Assembly: GCA_036320915.1 (NCBI GenBank)
Contig: JAXBDG010000008.1
Coordinates: 1,860,001-1,924,000, forward strand
DNA length: 64,000 nucleotides
Direction of reading: 5' to 3'
DNA from: Linnemannia elongata
Lineage: Eukaryota; Mortierellomycota; Mortierellomycetes; Mortierellales; Mortierellaceae
Both the position numbers and the translations under genes were made by a program. A model generated the notes under the pieces. That model ran no database searches. It worked only from the letters and a program-made list of their open reading frames with translations, and was not told where the DNA came from. Positions 41,123 through 50,671 of this stretch are shown piece by piece; position 1 is the first letter of the stretch; the number at the start of each line of letters is the position of its first letter.

Positions 41123-44100
41123 ATGAAGGGCCCTTCTCGGTCAGAACTGGCGCTTGCCGACGACAACCTCGAATGGATCGAGCAACACCACCGAGCCACC
41201 AGTAGCCGCAAGGCACCAACAACCCAAAAGGCACAACACCAGACCCTCGGCCATAACCTCAGTCATAATCAAACATCCGGAAGCCACGAGTTTGTACCGA
41301 GTGGAGACGAGTCCGACTATGCAGAAAAGAACCGCCAGTCCGTTTTTTATGCCCCTGACCCCCATAAACGCACGAAGGAGTACCATATCGAGCAGGCAAT
41401 AGGGGCAATCAAGCTCCTCAAGGCCGCCTCCAAGCCTGAAGGATGGAAGAAGGTTTTCAGACACAAGTCCGACTGCGTTGTCTCCCAGTCTACAGCCAAT
41501 GGCGACAAGCATCCAGCGTTCAAGGGCGAGCATGTTATCCGTGGTTTCCGTGCACAAGATGTCTTCTCTATCGTTGGAGTGCGAAAGTTGTGGGAGTAAG
41601 TGTTGGATACTATATCTTTGGAGTGTTGTTTGCCTTCTTGATCTGCAAATCGATTAGGTGATACAGATGTTAATTGCAACGCCTACTTTTCTTTAATTGA
41701 AATAGCGACTGGTATGACCAGTTGAACTGTGTAGAGTCGTACGACGAAGCAACGAACCTAATGTACATGGTCATGAAGGGCAACATGTCTTCAAAGTAAC
41801 GTATCATCCGCATCATATCTAGCTCATACTTTACCTATTCGTCCGGCAATACCCAAAAGGCACGACTGCAGAGCTAAGCATGACTCTAACTTGCAATGGC
41901 ATTTGTACACAATAGAACACGAGACATCTCGATGGTCGAACGGATAGAGGTGGAGCGCGACGGAACCATATACTTTGCCTCTTGCTCTGTCGAATCCAGC
42001 AAAATCCCGCTCATGTCCGGCAAGGTCAGGGCAGATATCTTTGTTGCAGGATGGATCATTCAGCCATTGCCATCCAACCCACCGATCACGAAGGTCACCT
42101 ACGTGATCCAAACAGATCTCCTCAGCCGGCTACCAAAGTTCATTGCACGGAGGGCGCTCGCTAAACGACCATTGGTCATCACCACCATCGAAACCCACCT
42201 CAAGAAGAATGGTGTTCCAATGATCATGTCCAACCTTGTCTCCCAGACCACCAACCGCCACCGAAGTCTCAGTGAACCTCTAAAGCCCGAAAAGTTTCTG
42301 TTTGCCGAGCGGGATTCCGAGGAGAATGTTCAGTCTGGGTCGTCCTTCCTTTCACCCATCGAGCCACTTCGCCCAGATAACCATGTCGAGGAGCTGAATA
42401 CAAAGGAGGACTCTGAGGACGACGACCTTCAGCTAGCTATGGCCTCGGTCAGTGAAAGCTCGACAGCCAGGAATTCGCTAGCACCCAGTCTCCTGTCTAC
42501 CCGTTCCCTCGCTCCGTCAATATTCTCACCCGAGTTCCTGGAAAACAACGCACATCTCGGCGACACTGCAATGTTTGGCGATTCAGTTTTGTTTGGCAAA
42601 GGAGGCATCTACGAGAACACTATGCGGCAACAGGGCGATATATCGCGAGTATCTGACGATACCAACCGGACACAATCGCCTCAGCTCGCCCATACAACAG
42701 CCCACCTTCCTGAGCGTACTCGGCGGGCACCACCCCAAGCTGCAAGGACTCTCCCACCAGAAACCGACATCCGGGATCGCCATCAATTGGCTTCACAGGG
42801 TTCCTTCAAGCGGATGGACACACCCAGATCAAATCCTCCATCCAGGACCGCCCAGCCATCCACCCCAGAACAACCTGTTACACCTACAGTCACTCTGGCG
42901 ACACCCCCATTGACACCCACAACCTCGATCGATGGCAAGGACGCAACTTCGGATTCGGATGCCTCTCTTACACCCAAAGTCAGGATCGTCCCCCGAGTGC
43001 CCAAAATGCACACCTCTGTTGACACCTCTCTTCCTCAACGACCCAGTTCAATGGCTTTTGCAGCGTTCGGAATGCGCTCGCCTTCAGCCATCATGGAAGC
43101 ACGTCGTCACAGCACCCTGATCAGTCGTAGCTCGTCCTTTGCTCCACGACATAGCCAGGCTGTCCCAATCCGAGGCAGTCCCAACATTACTCTGCAGGGC
43201 ATGAACCGGTCGTCGATGATCTTCAACTCGACACCAAATGCATTGAAGAGGCACTCAACCGCTCCCAGTCTGGATTCCAACCGTTCATCTACTCAGCTTA
43301 CGCCCCTGATCGTCCTTCCTCATCGCCACTCGGAGACAGCACGCAAGGCGTTGGCAATGTTTAAAGTGTTGGCATCGAGTCCCGAGGATCGCTGGAAGGC
43401 TGTCTCGAGCGATGGTACCTTCAAGAGCTACAGCAGAGTGATCTCGGGCGCTGGACTCCCAATGCTCCGAGCAGAGGGTGTCATCAGTGGAGGCTGGACA
43501 GTTGAGCAGATCAACGCCGTCATCGAGTCCTCTGGCTGCCGACAGATATGGGATGAACGCTTTGACAATCTCTCGATCGCGGAGACGTTTAATTCGAATG
43601 AGTACCTCTTCCATGTCGCACTCCGTGGCATTGGATCCTTGACGTACGTTTTGCCAGGCAATCCCAGCCATGTAGCACGTTAAAAAAATTATTCATGTCT
43701 GTCGTTTCTTACCCATTTTATTACTTGCTTACATTCTCTTAAAATAGTGGCCGTGATCTAGCAGGAGTAACAATTGTCGACCGCGATCCTCAGACAGCTG
43801 CACTCTGCAACGTCTCAACGTCGGTTCTCGACTCTACCATCCCAGAAGATCCTGGTCGTATCCGTGCATTGCTTGAGTTGTCCGGTTGGTCTCTGAGACC
43901 TACATTTGATGGACAGGGCAATACCGTGTCGGTGAACGTCACTTTTGTGATACAGATCGATATCCGCGGCACGCTCCCTACCTCAGTCGTCAAGTCACTA
44001 ACCGGCAGCATGATGACAGCCGTCTCTCGCCTCAACCAGTTCATCAACAAGAACGGATACCCACCCTATGCCTCTCACATCTCTGGTACTCGCCTCCTCG

Positions 44101-46106
44101 ACACATTCGAGCCCAAGACTGGCTTCTACGAGCTGTGCTACAAAGCGGCGCCAGGGTGGACTGAGGTTCGAGTCGGCCGTAAGGTCTACAAGGATGGCTA
44201 CGACTTTTTCATCAAGCCTGACGACCCTACCGTCCGTGTTGAGCTTGCTCCTGACTTTGGCGGTGTTCGTATCTGGACTACCCTCGACCATGAGGGCCAG
44301 AGCATCATTGCCCAGGTCACCCGTAAAGGACATAACTCGGCAGGCAACCCTGCTCAGGAGCCAACTCAGCCATCGCAGCCCGATGACGAAGAGAGGGGGA
44401 GCGAGAGTGACGAGCCAAGCCGCCGCAAGCGAGAGTCATATGTACCCCGTCGACCAAGAGACAGCCGTGTGTTTGAATCGTCGTCCCCAACGTTTGGAGG
44501 TCCCTCCCCGCGCAAGTCGTCGAATCACCTAAAGAGTAATGATGAAGAAGATGATGTTGAGTTGGAGAGTCCTGAGCAGGTAGATGAGCGTTCTTCTGGA
44601 GACGTTGGTGGTGGATCCGACCTACGACCACATGAGGCGGCGGTGTCGTCCGTCGGTCGTAAGAGGAGAAGCGCCAGCTTCACAACTTTGAGTGCCTTTG
44701 ACCCTAATCTCGTTGTTGCCTCTTCTTCCTACCGACCCGCTGAACTCCCACAGGCTTCAACGGCCCTCAAGGCCTCGCAGGAGTCCGAGAGGACCGGGAG
44801 GAGCCGTACTAGGAGCCGCACACCCCGCAGTATGACTAATATCCCCGATGGTGCCCCTCCACCAGTCCTCCCACGCCGTTCCAGTTCTCTCAGCCGATAT
44901 TCTATTCCCCTTTCGCCGCCCTTCCTGTCTCCCGCTGATGCTCCTCCCATGCCCAGCATCTCTACGTTCACTGTTGCTCCATTGACCCAAAAGCATTCGT
45001 CTGAGCCGTCTTCCGCTGCCTTAACCGATTCCCCTACAACCACTCCTAACACAACTTCCTCAGGTACGACTTTTATCACGTCGCCTTTCTCCAGCCCTAC
45101 TCTTGGTCCTTTCCATGTCCCACACCACCAGCCGATCGAGTCTCCCATGCCAGGCCGCGATGTTTTCCATGCACTTGAGGATCCTGAGGCGCTTAATCTC
45201 TCAGCCCCAGCCAACAACACAGAGGGCGAGAAGAAAGACCCCAAGCAGTCCGAACCTGAGCTGAAGAAAACTACCAAGCTCACGTCCGTCTTGAAGAAGT
45301 CGATTCTGCAGCCAGCTGCAGAGATTCCCACCAGCTCCAATGTTGTTGATTCGGATGTCGATGCGTCTACCTTAATCACGCGGGCTGTCATTCCCGTGAT
45401 CACTGAGGTTTTGGCCGAGTCGGCCCCCGTCGATTCCGAGTCTGCCGATCACCAAGATGTCAAAGCCTTGTTGGCCACTATGAGCTCTCCTATGACTTCG
45501 CCCATTCCTGGACCCAGGACATCGAGTCTTAGCCACAGAAGTTCCAACGCATCGATCAGCAGCATTACCCGCAGGGTAACCTTCTCTCCCGATGTGATTG
45601 ACAACTCTGAGACCAGAACGACACCCCTCCGACCCAAGAGGCTCTCCAAGAAGAAGTCGGTCCCACTGAAAGCCAGTCCATTGGCTGCGCTCCAGACTCT
45701 CAGTTCCGGTGAAGCAGAGACTGTCAAGGCAACAAAGGCAGCTGCTATTGTTGATGTTGTTGTTTCTTCTGCTGTTGTCGAGGCAACCACTGGTGCAGCG
45801 TCTGTGGTGGAAGTTCAGGATGAGACCGGATTCGAGAGCGATGAGGCAGAGTTTGTCGAGGCCCAGTCTGAGCTCTTTGACGATACTACCGAGGAGACCC
45901 CTGTTGTTGACGTTTCAGCGATCGCGCGACGCGAGGTGGAGAAGGAGCAGATGTTGGTGGATATGAAGGGGTACTATGTTGGACAGGAGGAGCTGTGGCG
46001 GACAGCAACTGATTCGTTTGTGTCAGAGCTGAACACGGCGCAGGTCAAGGCTGTGCTTATGGTTGTGCTTGTCGCAGTGTATGCCAGCGGCCTGCTCGCG
46101 ATGTAG
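41123..46106 (+). CDS. Two-START-domain lipid-transfer-type protein with C-terminal membrane anchor
   Basis: Exons are 41123-41595, 41706-41795, 41916-43643 and 43748-46106, all in phase. The product is 1549 aa. About residues 85-260 form a START-like (StAR-related) domain: GWKKVFRHKSDCVV, EHVIRGFRAQDVFSIVGV, MYMVMKGNMSSKTRDISMV, and a last helix AKRPLVITTIETHLKKNG. About residues 690-930 repeat the plan: WKAVSSDGTFKSYSRVISG, WTVEQINAVIESSGCRQIWD, GRDLAGVTIVDRD, and TAVSRLNQFINKNG. A beta-rich block follows (GWTEVRVGRKVYKDGYDFFI, VRIWTTLDHEGQSIIAQV), then a long Ser/Pro/Thr-rich region and a final hydrophobic helix AVLMVVLVAVYASGLLAM with no tail. This suggests a tail-anchored lipid or sterol carrier at a membrane contact. 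The ligand is unknown. Confidence 0.85.
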
Positions 46107-46636: not shown

Positions 46637-49600
46637 ATGTCCGACACACCCAAGAGTCCTGCTCGTCGCCAATTGCGCAAAAGCGCACTCCAGGCCTCGC
46701 CCTTCGGTGCCCCCGTAAAGTCATTCCTCAAAGCAGCCCCTTCAGCCTCTTCCTCCTCTTCGTCTTCCTCATCAGCCTTCAACACCCCTACCACCACAAG
46801 AATCAAACCCGTCTCGCCACCTATGCCATCGTCAACAGCAGGAGCACTTGAGGCTGACGCCCAGGAGGAAGAGGGATCTGCCTCACCTCTCGACAGTCCT
46901 TCCTCACGGAAATCCGCCAGACTCAGCAATATGTACAAGAATGTGGACCTGAGTGTCACGCCCAAGAAGCTTCCAACAACACCGAGGTCAAAGAGTCACC
47001 TCAAGATAGGCGTGTGGGGCCATATTGTTGGCCTCAAGAAGCAGGACATGAGCGAGTATTGTCGCTTCCCTATCGACAAGTCTTATTGTTCCTTTGGCAG
47101 AAGTGGCAACAATGACGTGCCTGTCCCCTTTGAGTCTGTCTCGGACATGCACTGCAAGTTGATTCGACGGGAAGACGGCGAAGTAAGCAACAACAACAAC
47201 AATAACAACAATAACAAGAGCAATAGCAGAAATGGGAGGGGATGTTTCTTGATAGTTGCAATTGGCTGGAAATGAGTATTGTTTTAATATTCCGGCAACC
47301 AACTAACGATATTATTTCGCTCTCATTGTTAGGTCTGGCTTAAAGACACATCGAACATCGGGACCCTGCTCAACAACGTCCTTGTCCACGACACCGCCCG
47401 ACCCATCGAGCACAACGACATTATGACCATCGCAGGTCGAAGCTTCAGATTCGAATCCGCCATGGTAAAACCTAAACCCCATTTATTACGCCACCATATT
47501 ACATACCACTGTGAAAATAGGGAGTATTAAGCTGACTTACCCTTCCACTGTCTTTTCTTTCCTCGGTCATTTATCCAGACCATTCCACGGCCACCCCTTC
47601 AGGCCACAGACGGCAACACCACGCCAGGACGGCACATTAAAAGCATTCAGGCGTCATTTGACAGCGACATCTCGGCCTTGGCACAGGCTCCCTCACCTAC
47701 TGCCGGTAGAATCTCCACGACGCCGAAGAGAAATCTTTCAAGGAGCACCGCCGCACTGGAATCATCTCTCGGACTCTTCACTCCTAAAAGCGCTGCAAAG
47801 CTGTCTAGCTTGCTTGTTTCACCAAAGCCCATTCCTCTCCCTGCATTCTTAAAATCGCCTAGACAGTCAACCGCCCCAACCGACAAACCTTCAAAAGCCA
47901 GTGTCGCAGCGGATACCACAGACGACCGACAGGAGCTGGAAGAAAATGGCGGCTGGCGAACCCCCACCAAAGAGAAGCGCAAGTCACCCGACGACCTATT
48001 CACCGAACTGGGCAGGACGCCCAAGAAGGTTTCCTTTGGTCCCAACCTGAACCCAGAGATCTTTTCAAAAAATAACCCTCCTAATACGCCCATCAAGCGC
48101 GGTGACCAACAACCACCGAGTGCCTCGACCCCGTCGTTTATGGCAAGACTGACAGCTGCTGGTAGTACTCCCAAATCGATCCTTACACCTACCAGATCGA
48201 GCCGGACAAATGTCTTCCAAGGTCTCGAGAAACCCACACCCATCAAGCTCAATCTTTTCTCTCCTAAGGTCCAAAAGATCGTCACTACACCAAAAAAGCA
48301 AGTCATCGAAGCGCAGGATGCACCTTCATCAGTCAGCAGGAAACCAGTTTCGATACAGGACGAGCGTGCCAGTGATAGTAGTGGAAACGACAGCGATGAC
48401 AGTCTTCGGGAAAAGATTGGCTCAGGATCAACAGCCAGTCCGTTCATTGTGCCTGCAGCTGCAACAGAGTCAAAGAAACTTAATGACGACGTCGAGGAGG
48501 AGGACGATGATGACGAGAGCCCGCTCTCGACACCATCACGAGGTCCAGCTTCGCGACGATCGAGCGCGGGGCTATCCACTCCGAGCTGCTTGAAGTTGCC
48601 AGTTACCACCCAAGACGTCCCGGAGGAGCACTTGCATCACGCTTTCAAGTTGCACACCTCGCCTCTTCAGCCGGATGTGGACAACCCTTTTATTTCGAAT
48701 GGCAAGCCTCACGGTGATAGCCCTTCACATTCTCCAAGCATCGCGGCTGTCCAACGACACCATCCCGACTGGACAGATGCAATTGAAGAGGAACTCGAGA
48801 CGCCACTCATTGCCGAGGCTGAACACCCAGCGAACCCAGAAAAGGAGACTTCGACTCCTGAAGTTGATGTTCCGGACACCACCCCTGTACATACCCCCGT
48901 CCGTAACCGAACCAAGAATGACCAAAAGTCAAATGGAACGCTTGGTGGTAACACGCCCGGATCAGCTTCCAGACTTGCGCTCCTACAGCTTTCCGCTCAA
49001 AAAATCCGCGGTCTCCCAGATTTGCTTCAGTCGCCATCTGCAAGAGCATTGGCCCACGAGTCATCTGAACTAGCGTCTACCATCCCCGAGCCTAGTGTTG
49101 GCGATGTGGAATCGGAATCGGAATCGGAACAGGATAGCAGCGTGGATGAGGAGGCGACGCGGGCGTCACCTGAGTCAGACAATGAGGTGGCGATTGAGCA
49201 AACGGAGGAAAAAGCGGCATTGGCGGAGCTTGAGTCAGGCAACGAGGTGACAGAAGAGCAGTCAGACGACGAGGAAGAGACCAGGAAGGGAGTGAATCAT
49301 ACTCCTGAGCCGATGGTTGAAAATGAGGATGAGTCTACTAGCAACAAGGTGGTGGCTGAGAGAGATGATACCCTAGCCATGGATGACGAGCAGAATAACC
49401 GAGCAGGTGGAGTTGATTCCAAGAGGCGATCGAGCGCGCCGGCCACCAGCACTATTCTTCGCCCTCAGAGTCCAATCTTCACCGGACTCCGCGGAGTGTT
49501 CCGGACGCCCCAGAAGGTTGTGGAGACATGCTTTGCAGGATTTAACGGATTTCGCAACTTTGTGATGACACCCACCCGTTCGCCCAAACCTTCAACGGAA

Positions 49601-50671
49601 CTTTTTGCTTCGACCTCAAAGACTGAGAGTCAGGAAGCGGAGGGAGACGAGAACCCTTTTCAAGCCACATCAGACGTTAACAAACAGGAGGTAGAGGCTG
49701 TTGAGACTCTTGATGTGCAGGAAGTTGCCGCCGTCATCGGTCCTGAACAGCATGGTCCTGAGTTAGCCGAGTTTACGTTCTCTGCTGGATTTGGAGAACA
49801 GAAGACTTTCGCTGAGGACAAAACCGATCAATACAAGGGTGCAAAGGGGACCGGGGCTGACGGCAACAGCCCCAGCCACTCAACATCTGCGACGATGACC
49901 CCAAAGCGCCGCATTTCTTCTCATCAGGATGCGCTGGCGCTTTTGACGGGCCACGATGGAGAGCCTTCGCCAAAGTCAAAGGATTTCACGTTTGCATCGG
50001 ATTCGTTGGAGCAGATAAAGGCGCGCGGAAGGCGGTCAGACGTTTTCCCTCAGAAACGAACTGTTGCCAAACGGAGCCTCAGCCAGAGCGGGGACCAGGA
50101 TGAAGTCAAGAGTGAGAATGCCGATAAGGACGGTTCGAGCAGACGGAGGAGAACCATCTCGATGTTTGAGTTTTTGGCAGCGGTGACTTCGTCTTCTACT
50201 TCTACTACAGTGACGAAGCCCTCAGAGGAAGCGGAAGCCGTGTCTAAGGAGCAACATGATGGTGCCGGAGTTGGTGATGATGCTGAGCAGGAGGAGCTGT
50301 TGCGATTGTTGGGCGAGGGCGCTGATTCAGGGGAAGACGGTGATGAGAGTTTCGGCGAGATTATCGGAGCAGCTGATGAGGCCCCTTTTTACGATAATGT
50401 CTTCGGTGGTGGATCTGACGAGCACCCTTCGAACATAGCAGACAAGGCGGCGTTGGATGATACTAACGATTTCAATATCAAGGCGTCACCGCGGAGAAGA
50501 TCCGGATCGTTTCATACTCCAACCAAGAGGCGGCAGTCGTTCAGGAGCCGATTGGGATCGTCATCCCCGGGGTTCGGATTGTATGAGCTGGACGGAGACG
50601 AGGACGAGGAGGACGAGGAAGACGACGACGTGATCATGATCTCGCCCAAGCGCCTTCGTGTCCTGGAGTGA
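46637..50671 (+). CDS. FHA-domain protein with Ki-67/RepoMan-type PP1-docking motif
   Basis: Exons are 46637-47182, 47333-47464 and 47579-50671; both introns are phase 0. The product is 1256 aa. An FHA domain spans about residues 122-226: FGRS (153-156), VSDMHCKL (168-175) and NIGTLLNN (190-197) are the phosphothreonine-binding loops. Residues 375-401 carry KKVSFG (an RVxF-type PP1 site), a conserved spacer, and PPNTPIKRG. This matches the composite PP1-gamma docking motif (KiSLiM) of vertebrate Ki-67 and RepoMan in order and spacing. The rest is disordered, rich in Ser-Pro/Thr-Pro sites (for example KSILTPTRS, VFRTPQKVVE), with acidic blocks and a basic C-terminus SPKRLRVLE. I infer a mitotic chromosome-associated PP1 targeting protein, CDK-regulated. 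Ki-67's long repeats and LR domain are not evident. Confidence 0.88.
48014..48103 (+). other. PP1-docking (RVxF plus KiSLiM) motif within the Ki-67-like gene
   Basis: Codons for TPKKVSFG followed by ten to fifteen residues and PPNTPIKRG. Val377 and Phe379 are the RVxF anchor positions. Glu386, Phe388, Pro393/Pro394, Thr396-Pro397 and Lys399-Arg400 line up with the Ki-67/RepoMan motif as I know it. The Ser between Val and Phe (378) and Thr396 could be phospho-switched. Confidence 0.82.

Follow-up and report, generated by a model that had tools for sequence, protein, structure and literature searches.

A predicted protein of the fungus Linnemannia elongata that combines an FHA domain and a PP1-docking module in the manner of Ki-67

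Does Ki-67 (MKI67), the proliferation marker of animals, have a counterpart in fungi? The question is raised by a gene on the plus strand of a 64,000-nucleotide stretch of Linnemannia elongata DNA (contig JAXBDG010000008.1, or C31, positions 1860001-1924000; hereafter the window), whose predicted product carries an FHA domain followed by a module for docking protein phosphatase 1 (PP1), and which a first-pass annotation had taken for a fungal Ki-67-like mitotic protein. We find homology to Ki-67 well supported, because the FHA and PP1 parts stand in the Ki-67 order, each has Ki-67 as its best PDB match, and the Ki-67 FHA in turn picks out this gene. Judging from sequence, we further consider it probable that the product is a Ki-67-type PP1-targeting scaffold switched by mitotic kinases. 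Booth et al. list the PP1-binding regions of Ki-67 from human to Hydra and Trichoplax, animals only, and neither "fung" nor "yeast" occurs in the main text of that paper (PMC4032110); the accessible text of PMC8786303 likewise has no occurrence of "ortholog", "evolution", "yeast" or "fung". The gene model on which everything below depends is as follows.

46637-50671, plus strand: gene for the 1256-residue FHA-PP1-docking protein, start to stop, one open frame after splicing
46637-47182, 47333-47464 and 47579-50671, plus strand: the three exons, as predicted
47183-47332, plus strand: intron 1, 150 bp, within the FHA domain (between E182 and V183), GTAAGC..TGTTAG, with CTAAC 30 bases before its end
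47465-47578, plus strand: intron 2, 114 bp, directly after the FHA domain, GTAAAA..ATCCAG, with CTGAC 47 bases before its end

Joining the three exons gives exactly 1256 residues and an end at 50671, which reproduces the three-exon gene first proposed for this position; both predicted introns have GT..AG borders and a branch-like site (CTAAC or CTGAC) near the 3' end. The domain that meets the first intron is the one that ties the protein to Ki-67 at its N-terminal side.

47024-47461, plus strand: FHA domain, residues 130-225, split by intron 1 (Pfam FHA, 42.4 bits; match to the Ki-67 FHA 1r21)

The N-terminal FHA of the first-pass annotation is borne out by Pfam over residues 152-215, at a cut-off of 20.7 bits, and by Ki-67 as the best match in the PDB; PF16697 over the same stretch stays below its cut-off (18.6 versus 33.2). 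Residues G154-R155, S169, H172 and N196, which we take to be the usual ones of phosphothreonine-binding FHA loops, are all present. When residues 1-473 of 1256 were used to search PDB sequences, the two top FHA matches were both Ki-67 (1r21, E 1.6e-8; 2aff, E 2.1e-8). The next FHA, that of CHFR, was weaker (E 7.9e-4), and CHFR differs in kind: it is a RING ubiquitin ligase, and RING is not among the Pfam domains listed for the fungal protein. The reverse search, with a 94-residue piece of the Ki-67 FHA against the whole genome (a 51.1-Mb assembly in 32 contigs, the scope of all genome-wide searches here), gave a single match (E 0.004, 22.8 bits), which lies in the first exon of the gene.

FHA domains are nevertheless common, with 16 matched places in this genome, and so the protein could instead belong to a different lineage of fungal FHA proteins that act on chromatin or in checkpoints, of which the Tos4/Plm2 kind is an example; it would then recruit PP1 during S phase or where genes are transcribed, and have no role at the mitotic periphery. 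We consider this unlikely, since the FHA in the window is much nearer to Ki-67 than to the other FHAs of its own genome, a comparison set without Tos4-type sequences. As a 112-residue query it reached at most 14.1 bits on those FHAs (at L006), versus 37.5 bits for Ki-67 in the PDB search with the 473-residue query. Conversely, the Ki-67 FHA scored 35.2 bits on the spliced window protein (L017) and 13.0 and 12.8 on the next two of the 15 other FHA loci (L002-L016, with L010 and L016 overlapping); these were scored unspliced, which may have cost them score, although L002, L004, L007, L008 and L009 carry a near-whole domain in one frame. A generic FHA protein was rejected on the same figures (35.2 bits here versus at most 13.0 elsewhere).

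The second part of the protein that resembles Ki-67 lies downstream, in exon 3, and holds two candidate switch residues.

48023-48103, plus strand: PP1-docking module, residues 375-401, with KVSF at 376-379, the PhiPhi pair EI at 386-387, and the KiR-SLiM from F388 to PPNTPIKRG401 (by PF15276, PDB matches and register)
48032-48034, plus strand: Ser378, the x of RVxF, counterpart of Ki-67 S507 (the Aurora B switch) in register with Ki-67 505-RVSF-508
48086-48088, plus strand: Thr396 in TPIK, counterpart of RepoMan T412 (a CDK1 switch) in register with RepoMan 392-RVTF-395

The motif KKVSFG...PPNTPIKRG is present at residues 375-401 where it had first been reported, following the FHA as in Ki-67, and both its RVxF and its second motif hold up, being in register and over the PF15276 cut-off; its earlier name, "KiSLiM", does not, the docking paper calling the second motif KiR-SLiM (PMC5005033). 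PF15276 (PP1_bind) matches residues 375-415 with 28.9 bits (cut-off 27) in a search of the protein, and a six-frame search of the genome gave 34.5 bits for the same stretch, the sole place found in 51.1 Mb. At the DNA level, the pattern P-N-T-P-hydrophobic-K-R-G likewise occurs at a single place, the reversed control giving 0. Some fungal proteins may already carry the name of this PP1-binding Pfam family through automatic annotation. In the PDB search the best match for this part was Ki-67 (5j28, E 2.9e-5 over 29 residues), followed by RepoMan (CDCA2; 5inb, E 8.9e-4, and 5ioh, E 1.1e-3). Set against the protein without gaps, the 29-residue Ki-67 segment is identical at 16 positions: KVSF 376-379 falls on RVSF, EI 386-387 on EL 515-516, F388 on F517 and P394 on P523, so that the anchors and switch residues conserved in register comprise V377, F379, E386-I387, F388, P394, S378 and T396.

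Could an ordinary FHA protein with a tail rich in SP/TP have come to resemble a docking motif by accident? RVxF motifs are common, and as a bare count the protein's agreement with the published KiR-SLiM pattern, at 10 of its 14 defined positions, was equalled in 2 of 500 shuffles. With RVxF, PhiPhi and KiR taken together in register, however, the BLOSUM62 score of the segment is 96, compared with a maximum of 45 in 5000 shuffles of the same protein and 8 at the second-best place in it; PF15276 scores over its cut-off, with one place found genome-wide, and the FHA points to Ki-67 independently. Such an accident is hardly credible, and a chance motif was rejected on the shuffle scores and the single PP1_bind place.

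Between the two known carriers of the module, the fungal protein, judged by its FHA and PP1 parts, groups with Ki-67 rather than RepoMan. Among Swiss-Prot entries the KiR-SLiM pattern is found in these two only, according to the docking paper (PMC5005033), and Ki-67 is regarded by Booth et al. as ancestral to Repo-Man (PMC4032110). With Ki-67 the fungal protein shares an N-terminal FHA followed by RVxF, PhiPhi and KiR-SLiM in that order, an Aurora-type serine in the RVSF position, many CDK sites and the best PDB match for both parts; it differs in having about 120 residues ahead of the FHA, in its length of 1256 residues and in lacking KI67R repeats and a leucine/arginine-rich tail. With RepoMan, a vertebrate protein, it shares the PP1 module and the counterpart of T412; it differs in having an FHA, which RepoMan is not known to have, and in missing the counterparts of S400 and T419. 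An orthologue of RepoMan was rejected on account of the FHA.

The phosphatase side of the interface would permit such docking. The best PP1 of the genome (L018) shares 88% identity with yeast Glc7 in the matched part. It and a second PP1 gene (L019/L023) both read VRGSRPGK and so have Arg20, by which PP1-gamma is selected for Ki-67 (PMC5005033). All six PP1 residues named in that paper, R20, R74, E77, Y78, F81 and Q294, are found in L018, numbered from V19 (PMC5005033). These two catalytic-subunit genes are close neighbours on the window's contig, with about 42 kb between L018, at about 1.698 Mb, and L019/L023, at about 1.655 Mb. Two more PP1-related genes (L020/L025 and L021/L022), which we take to be PPZ-like, have long N-terminal stretches of low complexity.

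Several observations weigh against reading the gene as a fungal Ki-67, and some of them lend weight to an FHA protein of another lineage. At the level of the protein, PP1_bind is just 1.9 bits above its cut-off, and the four KiR-SLiM positions missed (S389, N392, Q403 and Q404) mean that the strict published pattern would pass this protein over. Changing F404 of RepoMan, the most buried KiR residue and the counterpart of F388, to alanine leaves function unharmed (PMC5005033), so the conservation of F388 says less than it seems to. The counterparts of RepoMan S400 and T419 are N384 and Q403, neither of them serine or threonine, so that two of the three RepoMan CDK sites are lost. Yeast PP1 also has R20, and the PP1 residues therefore permit Ki-67-type docking and do not prove it.

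The remaining points against concern other hallmarks of Ki-67, and the absence of the repeats, the leucine/arginine-rich tail and a TP-bearing ligand tail all favour the rival FHA lineage. Tandem repeats, 14 in mouse and 16 in human, are called the most characteristic feature of Ki-67 (PMC4841783). Pfam gives no KI67R match in the 1256-residue protein, and the only match in the genome up to E 10 lies elsewhere (E 0.93). A leucine/arginine-rich C-terminus was not found: the last 100 residues are acidic, with 6 L, 9 R and 23 D/E. The same source describes this DNA-binding C-terminus as "weakly conserved", places an N-terminal FHA in all Ki-67 homologues and notes a conserved 31-residue domain containing a 22-residue motif (PMC4841783). 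As the repeats and the tail are lacking, we file the protein as a Ki-67-type variant and not as Ki-67 proper.

The known FHA ligand of Ki-67 is NIFK. The phosphosites of the human protein lie in its C-terminal tail. To be bound by Ki-67, human NIFK must be phosphorylated at T238 and T234 in sequence (PMC4811767). The genome has a NIFK-like gene (L028; C29 at about 26.5 kb, minus strand; E 6.2e-27, 47% identity over 107 of 110 query residues), whose product ends in EFPGYKANIQEKPKHTKF: the stop comes about 50 codons past the matched piece, and the last reading frame contains no TP or SP; one TP and one SP lie in the N-terminal part. The well-known ligand is thus not evidently shared, and the FHA of the fungal protein probably binds a different partner, or the NIFK-like protein at a different site. 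In that NIFK-like gene, presumably Nop15-like, EKKPVEKKVV-type repeats form a long stretch at the N-terminal side, ahead of the RRM region. Of the mitotic protein first proposed, then, the homology stands, both domains having Ki-67 as best match; repeats, leucine/arginine-rich tail and a TP-bearing NIFK tail were not found.

We posit the following scheme for a Ki-67-type scaffold in this fungus. The FHA would bind a phosphothreonine partner and so place the protein on chromatin, at the rDNA and nucleolus or at another mitotic site, and KVSF, EI and the KiR-SLiM would dock PP1 through the grooves used by Ki-67 and RepoMan, residues being conserved on both sides of the interface. In early mitosis, by register, an Aurora-type kinase acting on Ser378, which is preceded by K375-K376-V377, and CDK1 acting on Thr396 would keep PP1 off; at mitotic exit these marks would fall, and PP1 could dock and strip phosphates locally. 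In the animal proteins, Ki-67 S507 is an Aurora B target whose mimetics cut PP1 binding about 25-30 fold (Kumar et al., PMC5005033), and RepoMan S400, T412 and T419 are CDK1 sites whose triple mimetic blocks PP1 (cited in PMC5005033). We infer phosphorylation of Ser378 and Thr396 from these counterparts, and gating by both an Aurora-type kinase and CDK1, on fewer sites, is possible. Animal Ki-67 coats mitotic chromosomes and brings in PP1 at anaphase. In human cells the PP1 binding of Ki-67 is dispensable for assembly of the chromosome periphery (PMC4032110), so a repeat-free PP1 scaffold could serve mitotic exit without coating chromosomes; for the fungal protein we consider this likelier than a genuine role at the periphery.

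The rest of the protein had been described as disordered and rich in SP/TP, and the richness is clear: 51 SP/TP in the protein versus 21.8 +/- 4.2 in shuffles, and 18 full CDK sites ([ST]Px[KR]) versus 2.5 +/- 1.5. Disorder of the tail, by comparison, we infer from composition; the docking peptide, taken by itself, would probably be disordered too. Charge is blocked, with a variance of 31.7 versus 10.7 +/- 2.2 in shuffles and a maximum of 19.8 among 2000 of them. Thirteen of the 18 full CDK sites fall in net-positive and four in net-negative stretches, a bias partly built in by the K/R of the site itself; for all 51 SP/TP the figures are 29 net-positive, 19 net-negative and 3 neutral. Such a disordered-looking, charge-blocked and CDK-site-rich tail may shift its charge through the cell cycle. 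It also contains three boxes of the form G-Phi-x-x-Phi-Phi-x-[ST]-P.

49010-49036, plus strand: GLPDLLQSP, residues 704-712, first box (pattern match)
49484-49510, plus strand: GLRGVFRTP, residues 862-870, second box (pattern match)
49547-49573, plus strand: GFRNFVMTP, residues 883-891, third box (pattern match)

Three boxes compare with a mean of 0.009 in 5000 shuffles, a figure that is suggestive only because the pattern was chosen post hoc. They may be docking sites for a kinase or Cks. They are similar to the FKELFQTP core of the repeats in vertebrate Ki-67, but do not count as repeats.

How, then, did such a gene come to be in a fungus? A single ancestor with both the FHA and the PP1 module probably gave rise to the fungal protein and to animal Ki-67, which would make the repeats and leucine/arginine-rich tail of vertebrates later additions. 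That this fungal lineage acquired a gene of the Ki-67 type from an animal by horizontal transfer is very unlikely. The comparison covered a single fungal genome, and no organisms other than animals are named in the paper on the range of Ki-67 (PMC4032110), both of which leave room for such a transfer. The gene has short introns, however, its G+C content at third codon positions (0.56) is close to that of the adjoining open reading frame (0.58), the motif has diverged deeply and the gene is embedded in a 2.7-Mb contig; introns, third-position composition and divergence argue against a recent transfer. Relatives outside eukaryotes were sought with one 52-residue query, and none was confirmed among 589 pattern-matched stretches in bacterial and archaeal contigs or 82 in viral contigs, neither collection being a promising source of fungal genes.

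Given vertical inheritance of the gene, the FHA-PP1 module would predate the split of animals and fungi, with the proviso that one fungal genome cannot separate descent from transfer. The wider proposition, on which we are evenly divided, is that Ki-67 is an ancient opisthokont protein whose original core, a phospho-reader coupled with a PP1 dock under kinase control, was already working in fungal mitosis, surfactant repeats and leucine/arginine-rich tail being added later in the animal line. Should this hold, fungi would have a minimal Ki-67, and a small, repeat-free protein would offer a system for the role of the FHA-PP1 core alone. Downregulation of Ki-67 leaves mouse development unaffected, and cells lacking it proliferate (PMC4841783); its ancestral job is therefore a question that a fungus could help to answer.

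As to the surroundings of the gene, ARAGORN found no tRNA in the window. The upstream neighbour is an open reading frame of 787 codons from stop to stop (43743-46106, plus strand) with a hydrophobic C-terminal end and a weak, partial START match (22.4 bits versus a cut-off of 22); it has an RVxF-type RRVTF at 45570, downstream of which no KiR-SLiM was seen. Elsewhere in the searches, PF01644 (chitin synthase) gave 11 matched stretches at six places in the genome.

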